From Deltaproteobacteria bacterium (GTDB lineage: Bacteria; Desulfobacterota; Desulfobacteria; Desulfobacterales; C00003060): a DNA stretch of 64,000 bases. Under the pieces are notes generated by a model. That model was not told where the DNA came from. It was given only the letters and a program-made list of their open reading frames with translations, and made no database searches. The stretch lies in contig QMMN01000006.1 of assembly GCA_003647275.1 (NCBI GenBank), positions 19,537 through 83,536 on the forward strand, written 5' to 3'. Of the stretch, positions 49,447 to 64,000 are shown piece after piece; positions within the stretch are counted from its first letter, which is position 1; the number at the start of each line of letters is the position of its first letter. Made by a program: the position numbers and the translations under genes.

Positions 49447-52247
49447 CAAATCATGTTTCATTAACCATAAACGGCGTGAACGTAAAGGCTCCTGAAGGCG
49501 CTACTATCCTGGAAGCAGCCCAGAGTGCGGGGATCTACATTCCTACGCTGTGTTATTGCCCGGGGCTCACCTCAGAGGGGACGTGCCGTATTTGCCTGGT
49601 TAAGGTTGAAAATAAGAAAAAGCTTCATCCGGCCTGCCGTACCCCGGTCAAGGAGGGGATGAAAGTTATTACGGATGATGCAGAAATTGAGCAGGTCCGC
49701 CGTGTGACCCTTGAACTTATCCTGAGCGATCATGACTTTAACTGTCTCCTGTGCCCGAAGAGCGGCACATGCCGCTTGCAGGCGTTGGTCAACCGTATAG
49801 GATTTGACGAGCAGCGGCTTAATCGCCTGAATCGTGTAGCCAAGGACCTTCCTATCGATACGAGCAATCCTTTTTTTGATTTCAATCCCAACAAGTGCAT
49901 CCAGTGTGGCATATGCATTCGGACGTGCCGCGAGATTGTCGGCGTTCATGCCATTGATATGGCATATCGGGGTTATGACCTTAAGGTCAGCACCTTTGGT
50001 GATAAGCCTTTTAAGGAATCAGTTTGCGTGTCCTGTGGGGAATGCGTTGAGCGTTGTCCTGTGGCGGCCTTAATACCCAGGAAAATCGAGTATCCCACCC
50101 GGGAAGTGAAGACGACCTGTGCTTACTGCGGCGTGGGCTGCGGACTCTATCTGGGGGTGCGGGGAAACACCATTGTTAAGGTCAGAGGCGATTCTGAAAA
50201 CCCTGTCAACCGGGGAGAACTTTGTATTCGAGGACGATTTGGCTATAAATTCGTTCATAGCCCTGATCGGCTCTCTTCCCCACTTGTACGGGCATACGAT
50301 CCCCTTGAGCGGGTAGCCCACGGCATTGATGAAACAGTAAAACCAGGCAAAGCCTTGACAGCGCCTCTTGTCAAGCGGGAAGGAAAGTTTGTTGAGGTCA
50401 ACTGGGAGCAGGCAATCAAGTATGTAGCCAGTACCCTGGTTCATTACAAAGGAGACCATTTTGCCGCCATCTCTTCTGCCAAATGTACCAATGAAGAGAA
50501 CTATCTTTTTCAAAAATTTGTCAGGGCAGTCATGGAGACCAACAATATCGACCACTGCGCACGTCTCTGACACTCGCCCACGGTAGCCGGTCTGGCTGCC
50601 AGCCTCGGTAGCGGTGCCATGACAAACGCCATCTCTGAGATTGGAGAGACCGGTTGCGTTTTTGTCATAGGTAGCCATACAGCGGCCGCCCATCCTATCA
50701 TAGGGAGACAGATTAACAGGGCTGTGCGAAACGGTGCAAAGCTCATCGTGGCCGACCCACGTGAGATAGCGCTTTGCCGGATGGCCGATATCTGGCTCCG
50801 ACATCGCTCCGGGACCGATGTGGCACTCCTAAATGCCATGGCCAGAGTCATTATTGAAGAGAAACATTTAAACACCTCATTCATGAAAGAGCGATGTGAG
50901 GGCTTTGAAGCCTTTGAGGTGGCGGTTATGGCGAGTGATCTCTCCCTGGCTGAGAAAGTCACCGGTGTCCCTGCTGAGAAGATCGCCGAGGCTGCCAGGA
51001 TGTATGCCTCTGTTTCATCGGCAACCATCCTTTATGCCATGGGGATTACCCAGCACTCCCACGGCACCGATAATGTAAAAGCCGTGGCTAACCTGGCACT
51101 CCTTACGGGTCATATCGGCAATCCTTCAACAGGCGTGAACCCCCTGAGAGGTCAGAACAATGTTCAGGGGGCTTGTGACATGGGGGCCCTGCCGGATGTA
51201 TTGCCTGGTTACCAAAAGGTTCAGGACCCTGAGATACGGAAGCAATTTGAGAAGGCGTGGGGATGCCGGCTCAATCGATCCCCCGGGTTGACCTTGACCG
51301 AAATCTTTGAGGCTGCTCATTCAGGCAAGGTAAAGGCCCTATACATCATGGGTGAAAATCCCGCGGTCACCGAAGCTGACACGAGCTTCATCGAAGAAGC
51401 CATCTCACACCTGGAGTTGCTCGTGGTTCAGGACATCTTCCTCACGGAGACCGCGCAACTGGCCGATGTGGTCCTGCCTGCAGCAAGTTTTGCGGAAAAA
51501 GACGGGACCTTCACAAACACCGAACGGCGGGTACAGCGGGTCCGGAAAGCCATAGAGCCTGTAGGTAACAGCCGTCCGGACTGGATGATCATCTGCGATA
51601 TCGCTCAAAATATGGGGGCCAAAGGATTTGACTTTGACAGCCCTGAACAGATCATGGAAGAAATACGGACCCTGACACCGATTTACGGCGGTATCACCTA
51701 TGAGCGGATCGACAAAGTTGGACTCCAGTGGCCTTGTCCGGATACAGAGCATCCAGGAACACCGTATCTTTATCCTGAAAGGTTCACTACACCCAGCGGT
51801 CGTGGTCAATTTTCGCCCATCTCATACACCCCACCAGCCGAGATGACCAGCCACGAGTATCCTTTGATCTTGACCACAAGGCGCAGTATGTTTCACTACC
51901 ACAGCACCCTGTCCCGGAAGGTGGCCGAACTGAATGACCTGCGTGGTGAAGAACAAGTGGAGATAAATCCTGTTGATGCGGCCGCTCTGGAGATTGAAGA
52001 CGGTGAGACCGTAAAGGTGATCTCCCGGCGTGGGGCTGTTCAGGCCAAGGCAAAGATTTCAAGAATCACCCCGCCGGGTGTTGTTTCCATGACCTTCCAT
52101 TATCCTGAAACCCGGACCAATGTTTTGACCCATGCGGCCCTGGATCCCATAGCTAAAATCCCGGAATTTAAAGTTTGTGCGGTCAAGATCGAGCGAGAAA
52201 TCGAATACGGTGCAGAATATTTGGGGTGGGGAACGGGGAAAGATTGA
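49443..52247 (+). CDS. fdhA: Selenocysteine-containing formate dehydrogenase catalytic subunit
   Basis: 934 residues when the in-frame TGA at 50568-50570 is read as selenocysteine (residue 376). The sequence around it is DHCARL-Sec-HSPTVAGLA, the active-site context of Mo/W formate dehydrogenases. The N-terminal part has a [2Fe-2S] domain (CYCPGLTSEGTCRICLV), a His-Cys cluster (SDHDFNCLLCPKSGTCR), two [4Fe-4S] clusters (CIQCGICIRTC, CVSCGECVERCP) and the molybdopterin-domain cluster CAYCGVGCGLYLGVRG. The C-terminal part after Sec is the bis-MGD domain. It reduces CO2 to formate or oxidises formate, feeding fhs. The two reading frames abut without any frameshift. A SECIS-like hairpin follows the TGA. 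Confidence 0.95.
50568..50600 (+). promoter_or_regulatory. UGA selenocysteine codon and bacterial SECIS element
   Basis: The TGA is followed by CACTCGCCCAC and then a stem GGTAGCC / GGCTGCC (one U-G pair) closed by the loop GGTCT. The loop is the same GGUCU as in Escherichia coli fdhF, and it starts 18 bases after the TGA, the same spacing as fdhF as I recall it. This directs SelB-dependent selenocysteine insertion. It implies that selA, selB, selC and selD exist elsewhere in the genome. Confidence 0.88.
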
Positions 52248-52313
52248 CGATTGATGATTGAACATTGATGAATTACAGATGACAATCAACAATCAACAAT
52301 CAACAATCGACGA
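52243..52313. repeat. Heptad array preceding pabB
   Basis: The left part has TTGACGATTGATGATTG units. The right part has four tandem CAATCAA-type units ending CAATCGACG directly before the pabB ATG at 52313. The array takes the place of a ribosome binding site. Confidence 0.6.
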
Positions 52314-53572
52314 TGGACAAAACCAACCTGAGAATTGAAGCTGATCCCTGTCAGGTTTTCAGCGCCCTTTATCAAGAGCCGGGCGCTATTTTTTTGGAAA
52401 GCCAGAAACCTTCCTTTACAGAACGATATTCCTTCATAGCCTGGAAGCCAGAAAAGGTTTTTAGGGGTGATATTACGAACCTTAAAAAGGATGATTTTTT
52501 TGCTTTTATATCCTCCCACAGCCAGGAGTATTTTATTGCCGGCTATATAGGCTATGAAGCCTGTCAATGGATGGAAGATCTTCCCTCTCCTGGCGGCAAG
52601 GACACACCCAACCCCGACATCTATCTTGCCGCCTATCCGCAATTTCTGGTCTTTGATCATATCCGAAAAATCTGGTCTTGCTGGTACAAAGACAGCCCCC
52701 TTTCCTTGCCAGCCTCCCGCCATGAAAACAACAGGCGGTCCTCTCCAGGCAAAATTGTAGGATTTAATCAAAGCAAGGCCACTTATCTTGAAAATGTGCG
52801 CTGTGTACTCGATTATATCAGGGCAGGAGATGTTTATCAGATTAACTACACCCAGAGGGTCTATTTCTCCTGCCCGGAAGACTTTTTTGACCTCTACTTG
52901 CGCCTGAAGGAGATCCAGCCGGTCTCCTATGCGGCCTTTATAAACCTGGGAAAAGGCGTGGTTATGTCAGGAAGTCCGGAACTCTTCTTGCGCCTCAAGC
53001 AAAACACGATCTTGAGCAAGCCCATGAAGGGTACGAGAAAAAGGTCTCAGCAAGCTCGGATTGACAGGAGGTTGAGGCGGGAACTGAAAGAGAGTGAAAA
53101 GGATCAGGCAGAAAATGTTATGATTGTGGACCTTATGAGAAACGACCTGGGGCGTTTTTGTGTATATGGTTCCGTAAAGGTTCCCAGGTTGTATGTGGTG
53201 GAGGCCTATGACACTGTTTATCAAATGGTTTCCTATGTTAGCGGCAGGGTTAATGGTAGCACGCCAATGTCCGATATCATCCGAGCGACCTTTCCACCAG
53301 GCTCTATTACGGGTGCGCCAAAGAAAAGGGCCATGGAAATCATTTATGAACTCGAACCCCACCAGCGAGGCGTATACTGTGGCGTGATCGGGTATTTTTT
53401 TCAGGATAAGATGGTGCTGAATGTAGCCATTCGAACCCTTGATCTTTGGAATGGACAGGGTGTCCTGGGCGTGGGTGGGGGCATTGTGGCTGACTCAGAT
53501 CCTGAACTGGAATATGAGGAAAGTATCCTCAAGGCAAAAGCTTCCATGATGGCCCTCGGGATAGACCTGTAG
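52313..53572 (+). CDS. pabB: Aminodeoxychorismate synthase component I (chorismate-binding enzyme)
   Basis: 419 residues. The C-terminal chorismate-binding domain shows GDVYQINYTQRV, MSGSPELFLRL, KPMKGTRKRS (the PIKGT-type Lys motif), IVDLMRNDLGRFC, FPPGSITGAPKKRAMEII and VGGGIVADSDPELEYEES. The PIKGT lysine favours PabB over anthranilate synthase, so it probably makes 4-amino-4-deoxychorismate for folate. This fits a genome with heavy folate demand. No Shine-Dalgarno sequence precedes the ATG, which abuts a heptad array. No glutamine amidotransferase gene is adjacent. Confidence 0.88.
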   Translation: MDKTNLRIEADPCQVFSALYQEPGAIFLESQKPSFTERYSFIAWKPEKVFRGDITNLKKDDFFAFISSHSQEYFIAGYIGYEACQWMEDLPSPGGKDTPNPDIYLAAYPQFLVFDHIRKIWSCWYKDSPLSLPASRHENNRRSSPGKIVGFNQSKATYLENVRCVLDYIRAGDVYQINYTQRVYFSCPEDFFDLYLRLKEIQPVSYAAFINLGKGVVMSGSPELFLRLKQNTILSKPMKGTRKRSQQARIDRRLRRELKESEKDQAENVMIVDLMRNDLGRFCVYGSVKVPRLYVVEAYDTVYQMVSYVSGRVNGSTPMSDIIRATFPPGSITGAPKKRAMEIIYELEPHQRGVYCGVIGYFFQDKMVLNVAIRTLDLWNGQGVLGVGGGIVADSDPELEYEESILKAKASMMALGIDL

Positions 53573-53605
53573 CAGGTGAAATAGCTCGAAAGGAAGACCT
53601 GCAAA

Positions 53606-56371
53606 ATGGCATCAAGAAAGGGACGTAAGAGGCGAAAATCGCGCAAGACCAAGGCATTAAGCGTGCAATCTGGGACAAAATCGACAGCAAGTCTTCAAGA
53701 TGCTTCACACAAAAGTGGAGCTCGTGATGGACCAGCTGAGATAAGGCGACTGATTTCTCAAGGAAAATACAAGTTGGCTGTCAACAAGGCCAAACAGTAT
53801 CATAAACTTGCTGGAACCAAGGAGTCAGAAGCGATCCTGGCAGATGCCTATGTTGTTCGAATCAGGGGGCTGATCGACTCCGGTCATACAGCTGATGCCA
53901 AAGCACTCATAAAGGTGGTTGCAGAAAAGCATCCCAGTGTCGGCCAGGTGCTTGCTGATCTGAACACCGTGATCTGTGTGCGCGAGGGCAAGATAGAGGA
54001 ACTTGTACGGCCCTTGTGTGAGCCTGACATTGCCGAGCAGAGGCGCAAGGTTATAGAAAAGATTATCAAGGAGGAATTGATCGACCTGGATGCACTGGCG
54101 CAGTGCAGCCTACTTTCCTCAGAACATCCTTTAAGGGCGGCTGCAGCAGCTGTAGCAGAGGCGTTTTCAGCAGTAACAAGCGGCCCCGTAGAGGACGAGG
54201 CGATCACCTTGCCTGAGATTTCTCGCAGGAGCCCTTTTTCGCCGTGGAAGATTCTTATCAGGGCGATTGCGTGTTTTTATCGGCGTGATGATGATACGTG
54301 CAAAAGGTTTCTCCAGGCAATTGATCCGAAGTCTGCCCCTGCACGGCTAATACCTGTGATTCGTGCTATGATTGCAGACGGCTCAAGCTACAAGTTAAAG
54401 GGCAAAAGCAGCCTCCTTGTTTCAACAATAAGCGGGGACAGGTCAAAGCTTTGCCAGTCGCTTCAGGTGCTAGACAGCGCGCTGGGCGCACAACATCATG
54501 TCAAGACACTAAAGGCGATCCGACATAGTGTAAACACTTGTAAGGAAGTCTATCCTGAGCTTGTTGACAAGTTAAGGCAACATATTTTCATTCGAGCGTG
54601 GATGAATGATTTGCCAGAAGAACGGGTTCACAACGCTATGGGAGGGCCATCTCTGAAAGACGCATATTTCTGGCAGCTGCATGCGCGTGCAGCCGAGCTG
54701 ACCGATCGGCCTGTCTTGGCATGTTCCCTATGGCATAAGTTTCTGAATTGCGCTGTCGAAGAGGGCTGGTTTGCCAGAAAGGGTATAGAGACGTCTGTGG
54801 TCTATTTTCACATGGCAGATCTGTTGCGCAGGGTACCAGAGGACGAGCTTGAATGGGAGCGCCAGGAGCTTATGATGTTTGGTGATACAGGTGTTGAGTC
54901 TGCTACATATTTTCTCTACCCCGACTATTTGTACAGGATGGCGAGCGAGATCGATCCTGCACCTGAGATATTCCAGAAATGGCTGGAGTGGGCCGAAAAT
55001 AGCGATCTTGGCTGGAGGGAGCAGGACCGTGTTGCTATGGAGTGGCATGCAGCCCTTCCTGATGATGTGCGGCCACTGTTGTACCTGATGGAATCTGGAG
55101 AAAAGAGGAATGCACTCAAGAAGGCCCTTGGATACCTCGAGAAGGCCGAACAGATCGAAGGCCTGAATCCGGATGTGCGAAGGGCCAGGCTCCGTTTGCT
55201 GGTAGCTACGGCTATACGTCACCTAAAGCAGAAAAAGACCCATCTGGCAAGAAAAGACTTTCAGGAAATAGAAAGGCTTCCGCAGGCACATGAAAGCGAT
55301 CGTCCTGCATTTCTTGCAGCACTGAGATGTGCGTGCGCAATGATTGACAGACAGGATTCTGAACTTGCCACCTGGAACGAGGAGTTGATCAGACTACTTG
55401 AGGACAGAGTCGCTGCAAGCGTAGTCATGGAAGGTGTGCTCAAGGCTTGCAGATTCTCTGAAGATCTATTGTTTTCCGGGTTGAGTGTTCCAGACTCGGT
55501 GCCAGGGGATGCCCTTGTTGCCGGAGTTGCCAGAGGGTGTGCCATTGGTGATGACGTTGGTTTGCAGTTTGGTATTCCTTTGGAGTGGGAAAAAGGGCTG
55601 ATAGAGTTTTTTTCCGGACAGAACTCTTCTTCTGTTGAGGTTTCGGTGATTCGAACGATTGCAAATGCGGCATTGAAAAATGAGAATCTTGAGCTTGCAT
55701 ATGCTGCATCAGGGGCTGGTCTTTTGCGCGGGGGTAGTTATCTTGGAAGGTTCTTGCTGCTGCGCGCACTCTCATTGCCCGCATGGGAAATGGATCGAAG
55801 AAATGAGTGCATTGCTGCAGCAGCAGAGCTTGCCCGCAGGCAAAGAGATATCGATCTCCTTGATGAAGCAATCGAGCTACGACGGCAAGAAGGAGGTTTT
55901 TTCCTCTGGGAGACTATGATAGAAAAGAGCGATTTCTGCTTGGACCAGGAAGAGCTCGATAGAGTCATAGAGCGTGAAAAAAAGGCGCGCAAGTATCCTT
56001 CGACATTCAGTGATTATTCTGATAGTGACTATTCTGATAATGATTGGTACAATTATTATAATGATGATGAAGATTTCGAAGACGAGGATTTCTATGATGA
56101 CATCCCATTCGATCTTCCGCCTGAAGTTTCCCCTAAAGTATTGCCTCTTTTGTTCGAGTTGTTTATAAAGCACAGTGAGCCGGATGGCCGAGTCCCTAAG
56201 ATCAAAGAAATTGCAAGAAAGGATTCAGACCTGGTGAAGCAACTCATTGATGTCATGTTTGAAGATGATCAAGCAAAAGGAAGACTCCCTGAGTTTGTGA
56301 CACAATGGCTTGCCAATTCCAAGCGTAGTTCGCGTAAATCGAAAAAGAAAGGGCGCACCAGGAAGAGATAA
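53606..56371 (+). CDS. Large helical-repeat protein of unknown function (chaperone-island gene 1)
   Basis: 921 residues and no family that I recognise. The first about 20 residues are strongly basic (MASRKGRKRRKSRKTK) and so is the C-terminus (SSRKSKKKGRTRKR). The body is almost all helical with TPR-like segments (LISQGKYKLAVNKAKQYHKL, ALKKALGYLEKAEQIEGLNP). Near residues 800-835 a tract rich in Asp, Tyr and Glu (YSDSDYSDNDWYNYYNDDED) interrupts it. There are no membrane segments. AGGAAG precedes the ATG, and the gene ends 9 bases before a J-like gene. The operon suggests it is the substrate-binding or targeting scaffold of a dedicated Hsp70 system, but this is inference. Confidence 0.8.
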   Translation: MASRKGRKRRKSRKTKALSVQSGTKSTASLQDASHKSGARDGPAEIRRLISQGKYKLAVNKAKQYHKLAGTKESEAILADAYVVRIRGLIDSGHTADAKALIKVVAEKHPSVGQVLADLNTVICVREGKIEELVRPLCEPDIAEQRRKVIEKIIKEELIDLDALAQCSLLSSEHPLRAAAAAVAEAFSAVTSGPVEDEAITLPEISRRSPFSPWKILIRAIACFYRRDDDTCKRFLQAIDPKSAPARLIPVIRAMIADGSSYKLKGKSSLLVSTISGDRSKLCQSLQVLDSALGAQHHVKTLKAIRHSVNTCKEVYPELVDKLRQHIFIRAWMNDLPEERVHNAMGGPSLKDAYFWQLHARAAELTDRPVLACSLWHKFLNCAVEEGWFARKGIETSVVYFHMADLLRRVPEDELEWERQELMMFGDTGVESATYFLYPDYLYRMASEIDPAPEIFQKWLEWAENSDLGWREQDRVAMEWHAALPDDVRPLLYLMESGEKRNALKKALGYLEKAEQIEGLNPDVRRARLRLLVATAIRHLKQKKTHLARKDFQEIERLPQAHESDRPAFLAALRCACAMIDRQDSELATWNEELIRLLEDRVAASVVMEGVLKACRFSEDLLFSGLSVPDSVPGDALVAGVARGCAIGDDVGLQFGIPLEWEKGLIEFFSGQNSSSVEVSVIRTIANAALKNENLELAYAASGAGLLRGGSYLGRFLLLRALSLPAWEMDRRNECIAAAAELARRQRDIDLLDEAIELRRQEGGFFLWETMIEKSDFCLDQEELDRVIEREKKARKYPSTFSDYSDSDYSDNDWYNYYNDDEDFEDEDFYDDIPFDLPPEVSPKVLPLLFELFIKHSEPDGRVPKIKEIARKDSDLVKQLIDVMFEDDQAKGRLPEFVTQWLANSKRSSRKSKKKGRTRKR

Positions 56372-56380
56372 TTTAAAATA

Positions 56381-56707
56381 ATGGACAAGCATGACATTAT
56401 GGCGACTGGCAAGGACCCGAGAAAGATACTCGGAGTGTCGGTTGATGCCAGCGATGAAGAGATTCGGGCTGCTTACCTGAAAAAGATCAAGGAATTTCCC
56501 CCAGATCGTTCCCCTTTAGAGTTTGAGCGCATCCGGGATGCTTATGATGTACTGCGCGATCCGCGCAGGAGAGCACGCATTATGCTGCAGTCGGCCAATC
56601 CAGAGTCGTCCCTTGTTTTATTGGTCGACAGCCACGTCCCTGAAAGGCGATGTGTGGGTCCTAAGCCGTGGCTTGCAGCTATGAGGGAGAGACAAAGTGG
56701 TACGTGA
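56381..56707 (+). CDS. J-like co-chaperone with PPD in place of HPD
   Basis: 108 residues. Residues about 12-66 match a J-domain: KDPRKILGVSVDASDEEIRAAY (helix I-II), then KKIKEF followed by P40-P41-D42 where HPD is expected, and FERIRDAYDVLRDP (helix III). The remaining about 40 residues have no recognised domain. The His of HPD, needed by classical J-proteins to stimulate Hsp70 ATPase, is absent. The altered loop may contact its own Hsp70 differently. Its 3' end overlaps the GrpE-like gene by 11 bases. Confidence 0.82.
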   Translation: MDKHDIMATGKDPRKILGVSVDASDEEIRAAYLKKIKEFPPDRSPLEFERIRDAYDVLRDPRRRARIMLQSANPESSLVLLVDSHVPERRCVGPKPWLAAMRERQSGT

Positions 56708-57509
56708 GGAGATCCTGGAGCGATTCAAAAAATGGCTGGATGAAGTTCTGGCTGAAGAAGAACCGCCAGATGGGATTGTACATGAATTACTGTTGGAACT
56801 TGAGGAAAAGGCCGATCTGGACAGTCTTTACTTACCAGGGAGTGGGTCTGACCTCTATTCCTTGTGGTCGGCTGTGATTGCGCTGACGCAGGAGGTCAAG
56901 CTCCAGGGTCGTGCTTTCAATCGGCTGAGCGACAGGCTGGAGCCCCTTGAGGGGCTTGGTGACTCTGATGCAAGGCGTATACCAGAGGAGTCTCATACAG
57001 TCCGCACCGGATATGAGGATAAACTGGTGCAAGAGATCAAACGTAGTGCTGTGCGCGAGGTACTCACTGTATTGCTAGATACCCATAACAGACTGGTCCG
57101 TGGGCTCGATGCTGTACACAAGGCCACTCAGGGCCTGGATAAGTACCGACCCTCGAGCTGGCTGAGGAGAATCTTTAGTTTTAGTAGACAAAAGGAGCGC
57201 ACAGATCACGTGCTTAAAATAGTCAGTGCACTGGAGGAAGGCTACAGATTGAGTCTTGATCGGCTCAATGAGGCATTGCAACAACTTGGTGTGCGCGAAA
57301 TCGTGTGTGAGGGTCACCCATTTGATCCAACAACCATGAATGCGGTAGATGTTGAAGAAAACATTGATGCACCTGACGGAACAGTGCTTGAGGTGTATCG
57401 TACTGGTTATATATGGGATGCTGAAGTCCTATATCCTGCCCAGGTCAAGGTTGCAAGGACACCGGACACAGGCGCCTATAACAACCGAAATGAACCGGAG
57501 GCAACATGA
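56697..57509 (+). CDS. GrpE-like nucleotide exchange factor
   Basis: 270 residues from a GTG start within the J-like gene. The C-terminal beta domain is clearly GrpE: GHPFDPTTMNAVDVEENIDA then PDGTVLEVYRTGYIWDAEVL. A helical stalk lies before it. The first about 100 residues are an unusual extension (VREEILERFKKWLDEVLAEE) not found in housekeeping GrpE, which is normally about 200 residues. It should release ADP from the Hsp70 encoded next. The stop overlaps the Hsp70 start (ATGA), a sign of tight stoichiometry. Confidence 0.85.
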   Translation: MVREEILERFKKWLDEVLAEEEPPDGIVHELLLELEEKADLDSLYLPGSGSDLYSLWSAVIALTQEVKLQGRAFNRLSDRLEPLEGLGDSDARRIPEESHTVRTGYEDKLVQEIKRSAVREVLTVLLDTHNRLVRGLDAVHKATQGLDKYRPSSWLRRIFSFSRQKERTDHVLKIVSALEEGYRLSLDRLNEALQQLGVREIVCEGHPFDPTTMNAVDVEENIDAPDGTVLEVYRTGYIWDAEVLYPAQVKVARTPDTGAYNNRNEPEAT

Positions 57510-59314
57510 ACCACGGTGAATATATTGTAGGGATCGACCTTGGAACAACCTATTCTGAGGTAGCTGCATTTGTTGACGGCCGGGTTCGGGTGATCGGGCC
57601 TGGTGATACAAAGATGCTCCCTTCTTGCGTCGGGATCTCGCCTGCAGGAGAGCTCCTTATCGGCGTACCAGCACGAAACCAGCAGCTTCTCTATCCAGAG
57701 CGTACTGTCCGGAGTATAAAACGTAAGATGGGCAGTGATGATAGTGTGACATTGGGCGACAAGGAGTTTACTCCACAGGAGATATCAGCCCTCATCCTTC
57801 GCGAGCTGGCAGAATGGGCACACAGGAGGCTCGGTCATCCTGTGAAAAAGGCGGTCATCACTGTACCTGCCTATTTTTCCGATGCACAACGTAACGCCAC
57901 ACGCGAGGCTGGTCAGCTTGCAGGCCTTGATGTGGTCCGGATATTAAACGAGCCAACAGCCGCCAGCCTTGCTTACGGCTACGGCTCTGATGAAAGACGC
58001 ACAGTGATGATCTACGACCTTGGTGGTGGCACGTTTGATGTATCTATCGTAACCATTGAGAGTGATATTACCGAGGTGCTGGCAAGCCACGGTAACAACC
58101 ACCTGGGTGGAGACGACTTTGATCAGCTCCTGGTGGATCGTCTCTTGCAGGAGTTTCGCGACATCCACGACATAGACCTGACAGACGGCTATTCTGCGGC
58201 TTACTCCAGGCTCTGGTGGGCAGCTGAAGAAGCAAAAAAGAGACTCAGCTTTGAGCCCTTTGTAAAGATACGTGAAGATACGCTCGTTACGATCGATGGT
58301 AAGCCACTACACCTTGAGACCGAGATATCAAGGGAAGAACACGAAGAGATGATTCGACCGCTGGTCGAGTCTACCTTGGACAGTGTCTCCAGGGCAATGG
58401 ATGATGCTGGCAAAAAACCGGCTGATCTTGATGCCATCCTCCTGGTGGGTGGATCTACTCGTATCCCTCTGGTAACGCAGATACTTGAAGAACGGGCAGG
58501 TATCGTGCCCCGTCAGGATGTGCATCCAGACTTGTGCGTGGCTCTTGGTGCTGGAGTGCTGGCATCGCGACTTGCAGGACATGAAGTAGAACGGGTTCTG
58601 GTCGATGTTTCACCGTATTCCTTTGGTCCGTCCTATCTGGGGGAGCGTGGAGGTGTGCCGTACCCCTATTGCTACCATCCGATCATCCGTCGCAATACCC
58701 CACTTCCAGTGACCCGCACTGAAAGCTATTACACAACTCGGCCCTATCAGACAGAGGTGGAGATAGACATATATCAGGGTGATGATCCTGACGCGCTGAA
58801 AAATATTCCGGTCGGACATTTCACGGTAAAAGGGCTGAGGCCGATCCCCGAGCCAAACCTGGTGCTGTGCCGTATGAGTCTTGATGTGGACGGTATCTTG
58901 AAGGTGGCAGCCATAGAAAAGGCTACAGGTAAATCAAAGCACATCACTATCGACAATGCCCTGCAGCCAAAGAGCGAAGAGGAAATTGCAGCAGCAAGAA
59001 AGCATCTGCAAGAGCTGTATGCTTCCCGTACATCTGAGCTGGATGACTTGTTCGCTGGTGTGGACGAAGAGGGCGCAGAAGACGAAGACAAGCCTCTGGA
59101 TCTTGATCCTGGTTGGGAGAAGGCGAGACAGGATGCTAGAAGCTTACTTGAGCGCTCACGTGGGCTTTTCGACAAGATGCATGATGAAGACAAGGAGGAA
59201 GCAATCGACCTTCACGAACAGATTGAGTCCGCAATAGCTTCCCAGGACAGCAAAGCACTCTCTGAGGCATGTAGGGCACTGGAGGAATTGCTCTTTTTTG
59301 TTGAGGGAAAATAG
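57506..59314 (+). CDS. Hsp70-family chaperone (not housekeeping DnaK)
   Basis: 602 residues. The ATPase domain carries GIDLGTTYSEVAAF, VITVPAYFSDAQRNAT, ILNEPTAASLAYGYG, DLGGGTFDVSIV and VGGSTRIPLV. The substrate domain is shortened and unusual (SPYSFGPSYLGERGGVPYPY), and the C-terminal lid is reduced to an acidic helical segment of about 90 residues. No EEVD-like end is present. It differs from DnaK (about 640 residues) and resembles stand-alone HscC-type Hsp70s only in general terms. The operon provides its own J-like and GrpE-like partners, which implies a dedicated substrate. Confidence 0.93.
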   Translation: MNHGEYIVGIDLGTTYSEVAAFVDGRVRVIGPGDTKMLPSCVGISPAGELLIGVPARNQQLLYPERTVRSIKRKMGSDDSVTLGDKEFTPQEISALILRELAEWAHRRLGHPVKKAVITVPAYFSDAQRNATREAGQLAGLDVVRILNEPTAASLAYGYGSDERRTVMIYDLGGGTFDVSIVTIESDITEVLASHGNNHLGGDDFDQLLVDRLLQEFRDIHDIDLTDGYSAAYSRLWWAAEEAKKRLSFEPFVKIREDTLVTIDGKPLHLETEISREEHEEMIRPLVESTLDSVSRAMDDAGKKPADLDAILLVGGSTRIPLVTQILEERAGIVPRQDVHPDLCVALGAGVLASRLAGHEVERVLVDVSPYSFGPSYLGERGGVPYPYCYHPIIRRNTPLPVTRTESYYTTRPYQTEVEIDIYQGDDPDALKNIPVGHFTVKGLRPIPEPNLVLCRMSLDVDGILKVAAIEKATGKSKHITIDNALQPKSEEEIAAARKHLQELYASRTSELDDLFAGVDEEGAEDEDKPLDLDPGWEKARQDARSLLERSRGLFDKMHDEDKEEAIDLHEQIESAIASQDSKALSEACRALEELLFFVEGK

Positions 59315-59337
59315 GTGCGAAATCCCAGGGGATGGAT

Positions 59338-59640
59338 ATGAGTACACAACAGTCACTTTGCTGTCCTGTGTGTAGGGCAAGATTTCGGAAAACAACAGAA
59401 TGCTCACGCTGCGGGGCTGATCTCACCAAGCTGATGACTCTAGCAGCAACAGCCAGGGCTTGTCGCAACAGTGCAAGAGAGGCTATTCATTCAGGCGATT
59501 TCAAAAGAGCATACCTGCTTGCAACCCAGGCACAAAAGATACATGCAACACAGAACGGGAGGCGACTTTGGCTGTTGACATCGTGGCTTAATTCAGACCA
59601 TCCAGATGAGCCAGAACACGGCGGACTTCATCCCTGGTGA
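59338..59640 (+). CDS. Small zinc-ribbon protein, 3' end replaced by an integrase fragment
   Basis: 100 residues as read, starting at the ATG at 59338 with AGGGG 6 bases upstream. An in-frame ATG at 59332 is the alternative. CCPVCRARFRKTTECSRCGADL forms a CxxC/CxxC zinc ribbon. A helical segment with a TPR-like look follows (AREAIHSGDFKRAYLLATQA). From about 59591 the frame continues into sequence that is the antisense strand of the integrase fragment (59588-59986), so the last about 15 residues are foreign. The native C-terminus has been lost. It is the fifth gene of the chaperone operon, 17 bases downstream of the Hsp70 stop. Confidence 0.65.
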   Translation: MSTQQSLCCPVCRARFRKTTECSRCGADLTKLMTLAATARACRNSAREAIHSGDFKRAYLLATQAQKIHATQNGRRLWLLTSWLNSDHPDEPEHGGLHPW

Positions 59641-59986
59641 AGACCACGGGTAAACGGGACGGCTTTTTTGCCGTGGTCACATTTTCCAGGCCATCAAGGT
59701 TTTTTTTCAACACATGGCGGTACAGAAAAACCAGGGCATTAAGTGCCTGATTTTGGGTGGATGAGGAAACATTCCCCCTGGCTGCCAAATGAGTCAAGAA
59801 GGCAGAGACTTCTGCCTCACCCATTTCCGAGGGATGACGCTTACCGTGGAAAAGGATAAAGCGTTTTATCCATTGAAGGTAGGCTTGTTCGGTTCGGATA
59901 CTGTAATGCTTGATGTGCATGACATCACGAACCTGATCAAACAAACGGGGCTTACCAGGTACATTCCCCGAGGGCTTCATAGTCAT
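59588..59986 (-). pseudogene. Truncated integron-type tyrosine recombinase (IntI-like N-terminal fragment)
   Basis: 132 codons. The N-terminal SAM-like domain is intact: FDQVRDVMHIKHYSIRTEQA then YLQWIKRFILFHGKRHP, VSSSTQNQALNALVFLYRHV and LPVVFTRDEVRRVLAHLDG. The frame ends where native IntI proteins continue with the catalytic domain, so the Arg-His-Arg-Tyr catalytic residues are missing. GAGAGG precedes the ATG. The break coincides with the zinc-ribbon junction at about 59591. The gene points away from the cassette-like region at 60-64 kb, the orientation expected for an integron integrase. Confidence 0.78.
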
Positions 59987-60167
59987 ATTTCCTCTCTTAA
60001 TATTTACAACTTAGCAGAATTTAATAAGCACAATATTTCTTTTTGAATGCTATAACAGACCTAATTTAAAAGACATTTCCGGCTCCGGATAGATAGTAGC
60101 TGCTTTATAAGACGACTAATAGGACAAATATTTCATGTTCGAATCCACGCATCTACAATATTAATTG

Positions 60168-60199
60168 TTGACCTGCTATACCTTTTTGGTATATATAAT
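60168..60199 (+). promoter_or_regulatory. Promoter and operator candidate for brnTA
   Basis: TTGACC at 60168-60173 and TATATA/TATAAT at 60192-60199 form a plausible -35/-10 pair. A perfect inverted repeat TATACC-TTTTT-GGTATA (60177-60193) lies between them. The -10 is only about 6 bases from the brnT ATG, so the transcript would be nearly leaderless. The palindrome is a likely binding site for an autorepressing antitoxin. Confidence 0.45.
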
Positions 60200-60204
60200 A
60201 TATC

Positions 60205-60465
60205 ATGAATTTCGAGTTCGACCGGAAGAAATCCAGAGTCAACGAGAAAAAGCACGGGATTGATTTTGTCGAGGCTCAGGCGCTCTGGGAAGATCCTGAC
60301 CTCTTAGAAATTCCCGCAAGAACAACAGATGAACCTAGGTTCTTGGTAGTCGGGAAGATAGCTGGGAAGTACTGGTCAGGGATTATCACCTATCGCGGAG
60401 AGAACATCAGGATCATCTCGGTGCGCCGAGCTAGAGATGAGGAGATTGAGTTATATGAAAGCTAA
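60205..60465 (+). CDS. brnT: BrnT-family toxin
   Basis: 86 residues, the usual size of the BrnT ribonuclease toxin. It starts FEFDRKKSRVNEKKHGIDFV and shows the family segments EAQALWEDPDLLEIPAR, RFLVVGKIAGKYWSGIITYR and IRIISVRRARDEEIELYES. BrnT is a RelE-like RNase neutralised by BrnA. It overlaps the antitoxin gene by 11 bases, toxin first, as is typical of BrnT/BrnA. Toxin-antitoxin pairs are common passengers of integron cassettes and other mobile DNA. Confidence 0.9.
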   Translation: MNFEFDRKKSRVNEKKHGIDFVEAQALWEDPDLLEIPARTTDEPRFLVVGKIAGKYWSGIITYRGENIRIISVRRARDEEIELYES

Positions 60466-60682
60466 GGATCTGGATAAAAAGTTTGACGAGGGAAAGAGCA
60501 TCTTGGAACAACTAGACCTTTCCAAAGCAAGAAGACCCGAACAGGAACAAAAGAGGGTCAATGTCGATTTTCCTTTGTGGATGATTCATCTGCTGGACAA
60601 GGAGGCCAAACGTCTCGGTGTTCCCCGGCAGTCAATCATAAAGATCTGGCTTGCAGAGAGATTGCAGAAAGCCTCGTCCTAG
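60455..60682 (+). CDS. brnA: BrnA-like antitoxin (CopG/ribbon-helix-helix family)
   Basis: 75 residues from the ATG at 60455, chosen over 60437 because it sits inside the brnT end in the usual overlapping arrangement. The N-terminus binds the toxin in this family, and the C-terminal part (KRVNVDFPLWMIHLLDKEAK, RQSIIKIWLAERL) is a ribbon-helix-helix DNA-binding fold. It should bind BrnT and repress the brnTA promoter. Its sequence is closer to CopG-type partners than to classical BrnA. Confidence 0.82.
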   Translation: MKAKDLDKKFDEGKSILEQLDLSKARRPEQEQKRVNVDFPLWMIHLLDKEAKRLGVPRQSIIKIWLAERLQKASS

Positions 60683-60873
60683 TGGGCTTCGAACCTCGCC
60701 ATGCACACCGACGGGCAGGGCCGGTGCTCTTTCTTCATACTACCCCCTTGCATCGCTTCTGGTAAACCGACCGTAACTGGTGATGCCCCCTGCCCGCTGG
60801 TGATGGCAGCGATAGGTGGCGCTTCGCGCCTACGCCCTTTGTCACGGTAGATGCTAAAGCATCTCCCGCCCCA

Positions 60874-60902
60874 AAAGGGTGCAGCTTATCTCGCAGCCCG
60901 TT
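60874..60902. repeat. 29-bp repeat, cassette-boundary-like, copy 1
   Basis: The sequence starting AAAGGGTGCAGCTTATCTCG and ending CAGCCCGTT is repeated exactly at 63660-63688. Both copies lie between genes of the accessory region and end in GTT, where an integron attC core (GTTRRRY) would begin. The next bases here (TGGC) do not give a perfect core. The region 60690-60905 also contains GC-rich palindromic segments. Confidence 0.65.
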
Positions 60903-60955
60903 TGGCGTCAAAACCACCAAATCTTATTACTAAGAATTAACTTGGAGATAAGACT

Positions 60956-61795
60956 GTGAATATTCGGAAAATCACATCATTGACTATGCTAATCTCGTTT
61001 GTGCTTTGCATTTTGACGAGTGTCATACTTTACATTGCGCCACATGGCCGAGTCGCATATTGGTCAAATTGGCGTCTATGGGGCTTAAGCAAGACGCAAT
61101 GGAACGAGTTACATCTCAATTTAGGTATTCTTTTTTTGTTAGCCGGATTTCTGCATGTTTATTATAATTGGAAACCAATAACTGCCTATTTAAAAAACAA
61201 AGCAAAACAAATGAAGGTGTTTACTGTAAATTTTAATATTGCTTTGATACTCACCCTTATTGTTGGTATCGGGACCTATTTTCAAATCCCACCAATGAGC
61301 ACTATAATTAATATTAGCGAATCAATTAAGGATTCGGCTGGTATTAAGTACGGCGAACCACCTTATGGTCATGCCGAGCTTTCTTCCTTAAAAATGTTTA
61401 CCAAAAAGGTCGATCTTGACCTATCCAAAAGTATAGAGTTGCTTCGGCAAGCTGAGATCCAATTTGAAAATGAAACACAAACCATTAATGACATCGCAAA
61501 GGAAAATAATCTTACGCCAAAACAGGTGTACGAGATTATAAAACCTGCGGCTCAAAAAAAGGACACCAATGGACATTCTGTTTTTCCAGATTCACCACCC
61601 CCTGGCTTTGGCAGAAAAAAACTTTCTGAGGTTTGCACTGATTTCGGTTTGGATCTCCCTGAGATAATATATGCCTTGTCCAAGAAAGGAGTAAAGGCTG
61701 AGTCAGCACAGAGCATTAAGGAGATTGCAGCAAAAAATAATATGGAACCAATGGCTATCTTTGAGATAATCAGAGACGCAATCAACGCTTCTTAA
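60956..61795 (+). CDS. Membrane protein with DUF4405-like N-terminus
   Basis: 279 residues from a GTG with GGAGA upstream. Two or three N-terminal helices (ITSLTMLISFVLCILTSVIL, LHLNLGILFLLAGFLHVYYN, FNIALILTLIVGIGTYF) carry His residues in HLNLG and LHVYYNW that could bind heme, as in DUF4405 membrane domains. The soluble C-terminal part has two similar helical motifs (INDIAKENNLTPKQVYEII and IKEIAAKNNMEPMAIFEII), possibly repeats of a small DNA-binding-like fold. Its function is unknown. Low GC and position suggest acquired DNA. Confidence 0.75.
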   Translation: MNIRKITSLTMLISFVLCILTSVILYIAPHGRVAYWSNWRLWGLSKTQWNELHLNLGILFLLAGFLHVYYNWKPITAYLKNKAKQMKVFTVNFNIALILTLIVGIGTYFQIPPMSTIINISESIKDSAGIKYGEPPYGHAELSSLKMFTKKVDLDLSKSIELLRQAEIQFENETQTINDIAKENNLTPKQVYEIIKPAAQKKDTNGHSVFPDSPPPGFGRKKLSEVCTDFGLDLPEIIYALSKKGVKAESAQSIKEIAAKNNMEPMAIFEIIRDAINAS

Positions 61796-62372
61796 CCTTA
61801 TATAAAGCAATAAACGGAAACAAGAGAATGCCTAACCCTTATAAGGCCTCCGTTTGTCAAGGGCAAAAAGGACCGTAAACGGATATCTAAATAGGATTTC
61901 TTCCGTTTTTTTAAGTGATGCAGGTCAGAGCTTTTTATAAGTTCTGTCTTGATTTCCAATACGCGGTTTCAGGACAATGTCTGCACTAAACACCTATTGA
62001 GGCTCACTAGCCGTTGGACACGGAGCTCTTTGGATGCAATCCATGCCGCCGCGACAGCAGGGGGACCATTTGGTCCTGTTCCCTGCGGCCTAGAAACATA
62101 TCTGTACCCTTATGCCGACCTAATCAAACGAATGGCTGGAAGCCGAAGACTTCCTCCAGTTATAGCCAGGTTCGGGTAAGGGGCAGAACAAATATGACAA
62201 TCTGTTGTGCTGCATCACTTTATGTCAATTGATCAGACCGGCTGTCCAATCAAGCGCGAGGGCGCCGGGCATGTCGTCCCAGCAAGCTGATCTTGATGGT
62301 TAGTGCCATAGACGAATGGTCATTGAGCAAGCACCGGGCTTTACCCATAAGGCGCCAGTTATGCGTTCAGGC
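61796..62372. other. Non-coding accessory region, possible attC-like site
   Basis: No supported gene. GCCTAAC at 61830-61836 and GTTGGAC at 62014-62020 match the two core patterns of integron attC sites (RYYYAAC and GTTRRRY). Their 191-base spacing is longer than most attC sites and they are not exact complements. The rest, including sequence after 62230, may belong to the end of the IS110-family element, whose boundary I cannot define. Confidence 0.35.
61877..61912 (+). terminator. Possible terminator after the DUF4405-like gene
   Basis: AAACGGA and TCCGTTT form a 7-base stem with a loop of about 18 bases followed by a run of T. The loop is long for a strong terminator. The structure may instead be part of an attC-like site. 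Confidence 0.3.
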
Positions 62373-63425
62373 TCAGCCGGTCTGTTTGTTAAGAAACTTT
62401 TTCATATCAAATACCGTTTTTCTTTTGAGCATGTAGTAAGTGGCTCTTGCTAGTTTGTGAGCAAGGATGGTCATGGACTTGGCCTTACCGTGTTTCTTAG
62501 CGAGCTTGTCTCTGTATTTTCGTGCTTCGGGGTTTCTTCTAAGGATAAGGACAGCAGCTTCTGAGAAGGCCCATTTGAGATGGGCATTGCCTATTTTCTT
62601 ACCTGAAGAGCCGTATCTTTTTCCTGCAGACTCCCTGGCTGATTTGACCAGCCTGCAATAGGAGACAAAGTCCTGCACCCTTTGGAAGCGGTTGATATCG
62701 TGAATTTCATAAAGGATGGTCATGCCCAGTATTCTTCCTACGCCGGGAATGGACCGGATTCTGAACAGAGAATCAGCATCGTGTTGTTTTGCAGCAAGAG
62801 ACAACTCGTGTTCAAGCTTTGTAAGTAGCTCATCGTAATAGTCAAGCAGTTTAAGGTCGAGCTCTATGCTTTTTCGTACTGCTTCCTCGGGAAAGCGTTC
62901 GGCCACACCTTCACGGTTTGCTTTGTATGCGATCTTTTTGCCGATATCTGGCAGATTGTATTGATGGTTGGTGTTTTGGACGTGTGCGATAAGCTGAGCC
63001 CGTTGTCTTGTTAGGTACATTCGCCGTCTGAGGAGATCACGGGTGGCGCGCATTTTCTTGGAATATACATAAGCCATGGGGATCATGCCTCCTCGTAAGA
63101 GGACAGCGATTTTGTGTGCATCGATTCTATCGTTTTTTGCCTTGCCGCCATGGATGGCCTTCATGTACAGAGCATGGCCAAGAACAAAGACGATCTTTTC
63201 ACTTGCGCACAGATCTGAGAGCCAGTACCAGGTAAACATGCATTCCACGGCCACGACAAGCTCTTTACGGTACCTTTTAATGGTTTTCAAGAATACGTCG
63301 GGCTTTGCCTTAATGTTGCGGTGAAGTAGAATGGTCCCGCGCTGGTTGATGATGCATAGGTACATGGTCTTGGCGTGAAGGTCGATCCCGCAGTAATACC
63401 TGTGTTGTTTGGTGTAGAATCTCAT
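62373..63425 (-). CDS. IS110-family transposase
   Basis: 350 residues from the ATG at 63425, which follows AAGGAGG. An in-frame ATG at 63476 is upstream of that site. The RuvC-like DEDD domain is visible as GIDLHAKTMYLCIIN, VVAVECMFTWYW and KNDRIDAHKIA. The C-terminal transposase_20 domain has IRSIPGVGRILGMTILYEI, with the serine-containing region YGSSGKKIGNAHLKWAFSEAA. IS110 elements, especially the IS1111 group, insert at specific sites, including integron attC sites. The gene is intact. Element ends were not identified. Confidence 0.93.
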   Translation of the reverse strand: MRFYTKQHRYYCGIDLHAKTMYLCIINQRGTILLHRNIKAKPDVFLKTIKRYRKELVVAVECMFTWYWLSDLCASEKIVFVLGHALYMKAIHGGKAKNDRIDAHKIAVLLRGGMIPMAYVYSKKMRATRDLLRRRMYLTRQRAQLIAHVQNTNHQYNLPDIGKKIAYKANREGVAERFPEEAVRKSIELDLKLLDYYDELLTKLEHELSLAAKQHDADSLFRIRSIPGVGRILGMTILYEIHDINRFQRVQDFVSYCRLVKSARESAGKRYGSSGKKIGNAHLKWAFSEAAVLILRRNPEARKYRDKLAKKHGKAKSMTILAHKLARATYYMLKRKTVFDMKKFLNKQTG

Positions 63426-63429
63426 AGTT

Positions 63430-63496
63430 GGCCTCCTTGTATAGTGGATTTTGCTTCGCCAGAGTATATACCCCATTACGGCGCTGCAAGGAGGCC
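63430..63496 (-). promoter_or_regulatory. Inverted repeat able to hide the transposase ribosome binding site
   Basis: GGCCTCCTTG (63430-63439) and CAAGGAGGCC (63487-63496) are perfect 10-base inverted copies. On the minus-strand transcript the second partner is the AAGGAGG site just ahead of the transposase ATG. Transcripts starting upstream would fold and block translation, a known way for insertion sequences to limit expression from outside promoters (inference). Confidence 0.5.
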
Positions 63497-63582
63497 TTAA
63501 TAAGTATCATTTTAGTGCACCGGACGCTCGGAACCTCGTACCGGTGACCAAATCGATAGGCGGTGCTTTGCACCACCTATCG

Positions 63583-63682
63583 AGCTGCGAGATAATGAGC
63601 GTATATTCGGCGCGAAGCGCCGCCTATCCACTCAATGAAGCTGACACCGCTTCGCGCCCAAAGGGTGCAGCTTATCTCGCAG
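63583..63682. repeat. Palindromic segment with 29-bp repeat copy 2
   Basis: GCTGCGAGATAA near 63583 and TTATCTCGCAGC near 63672 are perfect inverted copies. Smaller palindromes lie at or between them (GGCGCGAAGCGCC, and GGTGCTTTGCACC just upstream). The right arm is part of the 29-bp sequence (63660-63688) also found at 60874-60902. The layout resembles the foldable single strand of an attC site but without a clean core pair. Confidence 0.55.
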
Positions 63683-63712
63683 CCCGTTAGAAGGCGAAAA
63701 GAGAGGCAGGAT

Positions 63713-63895
63713 ATGAAGAATATCCTATATATAGTTTGGAGTGACAATAACAGTGTGGGAATTCCTATAATCGATGAGCAACATAGAGGAATCATTTCTA
63801 CTATTAATTCTTTACACTTCTTTATTCAAGCTGGACATGGAGACGAAATACTAAAGCCCACGTTAATTATGCTAGAACAGTGCTGTCCAAAATAA
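63713..63895 (+). pseudogene. Truncated bacteriohemerythrin
   Basis: 60 residues from the ATG at 63713, preceded by GGCAGG. The N-terminal half of bacteriohemerythrin is recognisable (YIVWSDNNSVGIPIIDEQHR then GIISTINSLHFFI). The frame ends at LEQCCPK, about half the normal length of roughly 130 residues, so the C-terminal iron-ligand histidines are missing. The break is near TGCTGTCCAA, a sequence that recurs at 63984-63993, which may mark an insertion that continues past the window edge. Confidence 0.65.
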
Positions 63896-64000
63896 TCAGA
63901 AATTGACAAAGTGATAACAATAAAATCAGCCAGATAGAGTTGAGAATTGGGTTCTTTGAAATTCAGGTTGCCATTGTTAATTGATGCTGTCCAAGACCGC

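Follow-up and report, generated by a model that had tools for sequence, protein, structure and literature searches.

A conserved five-gene cassette encoding a separate Hsp70, a J-domain protein lacking the HPD histidine, and a predicted TPR-like protein

Dedicated Hsp70 systems as such are already known. Besides the DnaK-DnaJ-GrpE set, which unites an Hsp70, a J-domain protein, and GrpE, Escherichia coli has HscC, a specialised Hsp70 with specialised J-proteins (DjlB and DjlC) encoded nearby and a deviant tripeptide, HPE (PMC13254874), and with Sel1 repeat proteins in the neighbourhood; in the HscA-HscB-IscU system, an Hsp70 and its J-protein are dedicated to one task. The short J-protein of the Shewanella AtcJABC operon binds the operon partner AtcC through the 21 C-terminal residues of AtcJ (PMC6715715), and in mitochondria the pseudo-J (type IV) protein Pam16 carries a recognisable J-domain in which the histidine of the His-Pro-Asp (HPD) tripeptide is replaced. 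Here we describe a cassette of five genes that shares something with each of these systems and differs from them in its Hsp70 group, its gene content, and its linker, tail, and J tripeptide. It lies in a stretch of 64,000 nucleotides of a Deltaproteobacteria bacterium of the Desulfobacterota (contig QMMN01000006.1 of assembly GCA_003647275.1), which as a whole is called the window below. No title describing this five-gene cassette was found in the open PubMed Central literature.

The cassette consists of five plus-strand open reading frames (ORFs) at 53606-59640 of the window, separated by gaps of 9 and 17 bases or joined by overlaps of 11 and 4, so that the ORF coordinates and the Pfam matches bear out the same-strand, closely packed arrangement of the original prediction. 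Gene 1 (53606..56371) encodes a protein of 921 residues with a predicted superhelix like those of tetratricopeptide repeat (TPR) proteins; gene 2 (56381..56707), a J-domain protein of 108 residues without HPD and with a conserved C-terminal GPxPWL; gene 3 (56697..57509), a GrpE of 270 residues with an additional N-terminal part; gene 4 (57506..59314), an Hsp70 of 602 residues that groups separately; and gene 5 (59332..59640), a protein of 102 residues with a CxxC...CxxC zinc ribbon, seen in the alignment of its cysteines, followed by a helical-looking, TPR-like-looking part. The Pfam scores are above the cut-offs for DnaJ (PF00226) in gene 2 (44.7 bits, cut-off 27.8), GrpE (PF01025) in gene 3 (72.1 bits), and HSP70 (PF00012) in gene 4 (440.2 bits).

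A profile of gene 1 scanned over 84,980 species genomes gave 48 loci, some of which share an assembly (L022, L028, and L041, for example). At least 3.4 kb of DNA follows gene 1 in 36 of these loci, and the other 12 have less room. All five genes are present in 33 of the 36, the GrpE gene in 35, and the cassette genes that were found share one strand in all 36. In other words, relatives of gene 1 sit with the chaperone genes and not apart from them, and the proposal that the island is a self-contained Hsp70 unit stands. The incomplete loci are L022 and L052, which have genes 1-3 only, and L050 (8914-11405), in which gene 1 ends at about residue 373 and runs directly into an Hsp70 beginning at about residue 253, genes 2 and 3 being missing; this apparent internal deletion reflects either decay or an assembly fault. 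Among the 12 loci with less room, L029 and L039 are still complete, and in L047 the 1.1 kb that follows gene 1 gave no match to gene 2. By raw start coordinate, genes 1-4 follow one another in order in 31 of 33 loci; the two exceptions, L017 and L042, are a matter of start choice, because the earliest start available to gene 3 there precedes gene 2. Complete units come from the Acidobacteriota, Planctomycetota, Desulfobacterota (including records labelled ‘Deltaproteobacteria’), Hydrogenedentota, and ‘Proteobacteria’, five phyla by the labels on the genome records, most of which are metagenome-assembled genomes; one belongs to Edaphobacter aggregans DSM 19364 (L030), a named strain. Even the distant units that we call class II (L088, L089, L090, L134, and L135) agree with the others in all five genes and in their order.

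The reverse search, with a profile of gene 5, gave near-full-length matches in at least five of 297 genomes of the window's own phylum and at least three of 297 genomes of Acidobacteriota, counts that are lower bounds with at most 17 candidates scored per genome. Seven of these eight matches sit inside a cassette; the eighth, in G413, is weak (27.5 bits), contains an internal stop, and lies outside. Two of the cassettes met in this way are new (G108 and G293) and two, in G319 and G600, are L013 and L025, already known from the forward search; six partial-ribbon matches were also obtained (G045, G094, G101, G338, and two in G391). No sixth partner or client gene emerged when 342 flanking ORFs of 54 loci (crude calls of at least 100 residues) were clustered, no family occurring in more than three loci. 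The five genes are thus a genuine conserved unit.

The Hsp70 of this unit is not a housekeeping DnaK. An 87-row tree places all 40 cassette Hsp70s, with three class II rows among them, on one side of a branch with a support of 98 in the Shimodaira-Hasegawa-like approximate likelihood ratio test, and in a more careful tree of 52 rows, all 25 cassette Hsp70s stand together (support 99/97, and 99% of the bootstrap trees). The group excludes the HscA and HscC of E. coli, the latter represented by one sequence on a long branch. The approximately unbiased (AU) test rejects a grouping, chosen after the 87-row tree was seen, that unites four cassette Hsp70s of Desulfobacterota with eight DnaKs from related organisms (p 1.5e-45). 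Gene 4 also falls short of the NCBIfam equivalogs for DnaK (456 bits against 822.55 for TIGR02350; 462 against 648 for NF001413) and for HscA (365 against 708.55 for TIGR01991). The phylogeny against DnaK, HscA, and HscC that had been called for therefore agrees with the view that this Hsp70 is distinct from housekeeping DnaK and, as far as sequences can tell, it stands outside the groups of DnaK and HscA and away from the single HscC included. Its identity is 35.8% to the genome's own full-length DnaK, which lies on another contig, 34.8% to HscC, and 34.0% to HscA, and all of these values, that for E. coli DnaK included, lie between 34 and 36%. It shares with HscC a gap where DnaK has residues 76-101. 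However, an interaction of HscC with GrpE is reported to be improbable (PMC8215388), whereas the cassette nearly always brings its own GrpE gene. The presence of GrpE also sets the cassette apart from the HscA system, as does the absence of Fe-S assembly genes from it. DnaK paralogues have been reported from 31.6% of 38 Acidobacteria genomes (PMC11019930), and some of the cassette Hsp70s may be among them.

As in DnaK, the ATPase domain retains its catalytic and J-contact residues. In the numbering of E. coli DnaK, residues D8, K70, R167, N170, E171, D194, T199, L391, and D393 are found in all 37 class I rows, and the nucleotide-binding and catalytic residues of the Hsp70 superfamily (D8, K70, E171, D194, and T199) are all present in gene 4. 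The interdomain linker is different. It reads RVLVDV in the window (58592..58609) where E. coli DnaK has VLLLDV, and when the 37 class I rows (without the three class II rows) are compared with 37 DnaK-like rows (without ten divergent Hsp70s), position 389 is Arg throughout class I (37 of 37) and hydrophobic in 37 of 37 DnaK-like rows, and position 392 is Val throughout class I (37 of 37) and Leu in 36 of 37 DnaK-like rows. The two class II rows that were viewed, L088 and L089, have Ser at 389, and Leu or Val at 392, so the Arg is a class I feature. Position 467 is Glu or Asp in 32 and position 526 is Arg in 31 of the 37 class I rows; if the alignment of the lid is right, this pattern would be a swap of the R467/D526 pair that forms the lid latch of DnaK. 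The alignment and its consensus also give a conserved insert (LGERGGVPYPYCYHPII, 58637..58687) within the substrate-binding beta domain. Finally, the protein stops at ELLFFVEGK (59285..59311) without the disordered tail of DnaK. An LFF, LFY, or VFF end was seen by eye in 38 of 40 cassette Hsp70s, the other two being cut by contig ends, and a search for the C-terminal pattern found it in 28 of the 40 and in none of 47 comparison Hsp70s; among the 14 comparison tails that were viewed, those of DnaK extend further.

Other arrangements of Hsp70 genes were met along the way. The loci L092 (741-6244) and L095 (5676-8856) carry a second kind of Hsp70 unit, in which a divergent Hsp70 of 773-774 residues is followed by a protein with a zinc-ribbon-like N-terminus; in L092 this protein has a weak match to gene 5, and a protein of 694 residues comes next. 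A 7.7-Mb genome of the same order (G313; contigs C25, L091, and C499, L094) has 22 HSP70 matches, four Hsp70-like genes alternating with unknown genes over about 10 kb.

The strangest feature of the cassette, which was absent from the original prediction, is the missing HPD histidine of gene 2. The protein is built on a J-domain: apart from its Pfam score, the predicted structure has a confident J-domain core, and its top structure matches are J-domains (best E 0.0025, probability 1.00). At the place of HPD, the window has PPD (residues 40-42, 56498..56506), and among the window and 42 other loci, the tripeptide is PPD in 38 and PPE in five, that is, without His in 43 of 43. The best 120 of 2183 database relatives gave 118 PPD and two PPE, a count biased by the fact that the search profile itself contained PP[DE]. 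The five class II tripeptides that were read are PPE, SPE, TPE, SPD, and PPE; they never have His, and always have Pro second and Asp or Glu third. By comparison, HPD is intact in all six further J-proteins found in this genome. By its sequence, gene 2 fits the definition of a pseudo-J (type IV) protein, with a recognisable J-domain whose HPD is non-conservatively replaced and without the HPD or HPE of the active class. The HPE of the HscC system keeps the His that is lost here. The cassette protein also differs from yeast Pam16, which has DKE (PMC13254874) and pairs with an active J-domain; it keeps Pro and Asp/Glu, and its partner Hsp70 is co-encoded and altered. AtcJ, for its part, reportedly has a functional J-domain, uses DnaK, and is accompanied in its operon by AtcA, AtcB, and AtcC, with no Hsp70 or GrpE (PMC6715715); what it shares with gene 2 is the short form and a C-terminal extension, comparable to the GPxPWL end.

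In DnaK, the HPD residue H33 contacts L391 (or L392) in the linker, and D35 pairs with R167 (PMC13012618), which is given as a J-domain contact of DnaK elsewhere as well (PMC7289447). Because the cassette keeps PP[DE] and R167 and carries V389R and L392V, the Asp-Arg half of this contact is kept in class I, and both sides of the His-linker half are changed. In simulations, H33A keeps binding and blocks the stimulating state (PMC13012618). According to a 2026 review, HPE is apparently the only tolerated replacement of HPD, and the type IV deviations are enigmatic, either accident or selected; a designed J-domain analogue without HPD is reported there to be active (PMC13254874).

Gene 1 had no family match at E ≤ 0.1 in Pfam, NCBIfam, or PADLOC. 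In a search of 5.8 billion proteins, which admitted only those of 0.55 to 1.75 times the query length, 7,987 candidates were scored and 144 relatives were found at E ≤ 1e-3; among the best 120 of these, the named ones are mostly ‘hypothetical protein’. A Pfam scan of 39 chosen relatives at E ≤ 0.01 gave a single match, in one protein (0.0068). An AlphaFold2 model, built with 120 sequences, is an all-helical superhelix with a mean predicted local distance difference test (pLDDT) score of 87.8, in which 699 of 921 residues reach at least 90. The Foldseek and VIA matches of this model are TPR scaffolds (Ctr9, Ski3, subunits of APC/C, LGN, and O-GlcNAc transferase), and no specific fold relative stands out, the best matches being such general scaffolds. 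Among the three distant relatives L135, L088, and L134, the first two have a Pfam TPR match above the cut-off; L134 and the window protein do not. In 114 near-full-length proteins of the 120 relatives, a net charge of at least +4 was counted in the first 25 residues of 65 and in the last 25 residues of 75, a level reached by 5% of 25-mers drawn at random from the interior, and a strongly acidic stretch lies near the C-terminal end of 100. The alignments also show a conserved motif, RRSP(L/F)(A/S)PWK (residues 207-215, 54224..54250). Because of the helical superhelix of the model, the TPR scaffold matches, the TPR motifs in relatives, and the basic termini, gene 1 most likely encodes a TPR-like protein that has diverged and carries basic tails. 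The large helical protein of the original prediction thus gains a predicted fold, while the client-selecting role given to it is still one that we infer.

It should be mentioned that cysteine motifs occur in or near the acidic stretch, within the C-terminal 220 residues: CxxCxxxxCPxR in 25 of the 114 relatives and CxCxxCR in 37, with 32 having no CX1-2C. The window protein lacks them and has a single Cys (778) in its last 180 residues, and these motifs have no part in the mechanism proposed below.

The GrpE match of gene 3 covers residues 109-253 (profile 50-164 of 165) and includes the C-terminal beta part; in the consensus, the additional N-terminal part carries FxxWLD and DLYxLWxAxTxLTQEVKLQGR. 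In gene 5, the four Cys are invariant in 25 of 25 aligned sequences, and CxxC..CxxC is found in all of the best 120 of 704 relatives. Its best Pfam match is a weak one to a double zinc ribbon, below the cut-off (E 0.0046), it scores 14.1 bits against the cut-off of 31.3 for the FmdB zinc-ribbon family (TIGR02605), and no NCBIfam family matched above its cut-off. A small four-Cys zinc ribbon co-occurring with chaperone genes recalls Ruc (Rv0991c) of Mycobacterium tuberculosis, reported to be a redox-regulated chaperone with a disordered C-terminal part (PMC7448276); that of gene 5, by contrast, looks helical and TPR-like from its sequence.

Taken together, these features suggest that the accessory cassette, with its Hsp70 outside the DnaK, HscA, and HscC groups, its J-protein, GrpE, zinc ribbon, and TPR-like protein, may well work as one dedicated chaperone machine, a reading to which we give about half of our confidence. 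We speculate that gene 1, given its predicted TPR-like superhelix, would be a scaffold that holds or selects the client. Gene 2 would bring the Hsp70 to it, the Asp/Glu of the J-domain docking on the conserved Arg167, and might be tethered through the GPxPWL end much as AtcJ is to AtcC. The altered linker would substitute for the His-linker contact of DnaK, and ATP would be hydrolysed only on the complex of scaffold and client, after which GrpE would reset the Hsp70. Gene 5 may be another helper that binds clients or senses redox state, perhaps redox-switched like Ruc. Eukaryotic EEVD ends dock on TPR surfaces; similarly, gene 1 or gene 5 could offer such a surface to the conserved LLFFVEG end of the cassette Hsp70.

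A bolder version of the dedicated machine is a tentative proposal: the Hsp70 would be active through a second J-Hsp70 code, in which the HPD His has permanently become Pro, the linker has been rewritten to match (Arg389 and Val392), and the TPR superhelix, bound to the LLFFVEG tail, supplies the trigger, so that the pair would be orthogonal to the DnaJ-DnaK of the same cell. The absence of the HPD His from every member read can, however, be turned the other way. If gene 2 were a true pseudo-J, it would bind the Hsp70 without stimulating it, as a tether or a brake, and the housekeeping DnaJ or gene 1 would do the stimulating, in the manner of Pam16 beside Pam18 in mitochondria, where Pam16 reportedly binds Pam18 and inhibits it (PMC13254874). 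The H33A simulations fit this explanation, and the retained Asp/Glu and R167 suit binding. On the other hand, the cassette has no HPD-bearing J partner, whereas the active partner of Pam16 is a dedicated one. The class I linker, moreover, is changed on the side that faces the His, a change that would be superfluous in a mere tether; yet this change is a single mark shared by a clade and not a set of independent co-changes. We consider a pseudo-J less likely than not.

The roles of gene 1 and its neighbours could also be reversed, gene 1 being a client or effector that genes 2-5 fold, assemble, or remodel, as HscA and HscB serve IscU. Gene 1 is large and is the fastest-diverging of the five (over 35 loci, its mean identity is 0.37 and that of the Hsp70 0.64), and no other client gene is common to the loci. 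However, a TPR-like superhelix is typically a binding scaffold and not a hard-to-fold enzyme, and no catalytic domain was found in the Pfam and NCBIfam scans of gene 1 or the Pfam scan of its relatives. We therefore think this reversal rather unlikely.

The distribution of the cassette is patchy. Gene 1 is found in three of 297 genomes of a sample of the phylum and in three of 22 genomes of the genus, the window's own genome being counted in both. In the window, the cassette begins 33 bases after pabB, a gene conserved in relatives. The DNA 3' of pabB could be read in eight relatives: four (L174, L176, L177, and L179) have next to it one ORF family, which by its sequence resembles a PabC-type aminotransferase, and the other four have other genes. 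The two other cassette-bearing members of the genus have the cassette and pabB on different contigs (C117 and C245 in G301; C162, with pabB on C123 and C230, in G298). When pairwise distances are compared over 35 complete class I loci, each of the ten gene pairs shows a correlation (Spearman 0.46-0.79, with none of 500 permutations as high), whereas the distances of the cassette Hsp70 and the host DnaK give a Spearman coefficient of 0.19 with a nominal p of 0.12, nominal because the pairs are not independent, over 12 of 13 hosts (L015, whose Hsp70 ORF is broken by a stop, was dropped). Because the five genes diverge together while the Hsp70 does not follow the host DnaK, the cassette seems to be an accessory element that has moved horizontally as a block.

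The mobile surroundings that had been noted are confirmed by family matches. Downstream of the cassette lie an N-terminal fragment of an integron integrase on the minus strand (59588-59986; TIGR02249, profile 2-116 of 315), a BrnT/BrnA toxin-antitoxin pair (60205-60682), and an IS110 transposase on the minus strand (62373-63476). Two repeats at 60867-60913 and 63653-63699 are 85% alike, have inverted arms, and flank the IS110-family transposase; calling them attC-like is our own reading, as is the view that 59588-63701 is probably the remnant of an integron-like region.

Such surroundings had led to the suggestion of a defence function, and the patchy occurrence, the apparent movement as a block, and the adjoining integron remnant, toxin-antitoxin pair, and insertion sequence would all suit an anti-phage system. 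The searches do not support it. PADLOC gave the Hsp70 a match to PDC-M61B (E 0.00047), gene 5 matches to two models (E 0.08-0.09), and the other three proteins nothing, and we find none of these matches convincing. From a set of 150 flanking proteins, the two nearest of at least 110 residues on each side of each cassette, 143 were scanned (seven large ones were omitted); among the first 25 of the 105 PADLOC families matched, none takes in more than five of these proteins, and most, including the commonest at five each, are of kinase type, a scope that leaves room for single defence genes. Gene 1 was not found in collections of phages, plasmids, or viral contigs, one of these searches having used a single protein that detects close relatives only. 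A defence system is therefore improbable. That the cassette arose simply by duplication of the housekeeping dnaK-dnaJ-grpE locus, with which it shares protein families, is hardly credible, because it is rejected by the AU test against joining with the DnaKs of kin, the genome's own DnaK exists elsewhere at little more than a third identity, HPD is lost, and two genes are added.

Upstream of the cassette, the window encodes a formate dehydrogenase/molybdopterin oxidoreductase. A functional link with it was considered, a molybdopterin oxidoreductase lying upstream in L088 as well, and was dropped because only two of the 143 flanking proteins match that family. Within 50400-50700, the formate dehydrogenase gene is interrupted by an in-frame TGA (HCARL-TGA-HSPTVAG) and continues into a second ORF if this codon is read as U; its position is the one where such enzymes usually carry selenocysteine. 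No structured RNA was found above the gathering scores at 49000-64000.

The HPD tripeptide has been held essential for J-domains, and here all members read, from five phyla going by the genome records, share a deviation from it, together with a co-encoded Hsp70 that is altered on the opposite side of the contact. Because this altered Hsp70 is encoded beside it, the question of whether such deviations are accidents or were selected can be tested with one purified pair, and a cultured host, Edaphobacter aggregans DSM 19364, is at hand for genetics. The cassette also places a family of unannotated TPR-like proteins of about 900 residues in a chaperone machine. If the pair proves active, it would mean that an Hsp70 can be triggered without the histidine, and would offer an orthogonal chaperone for engineering.

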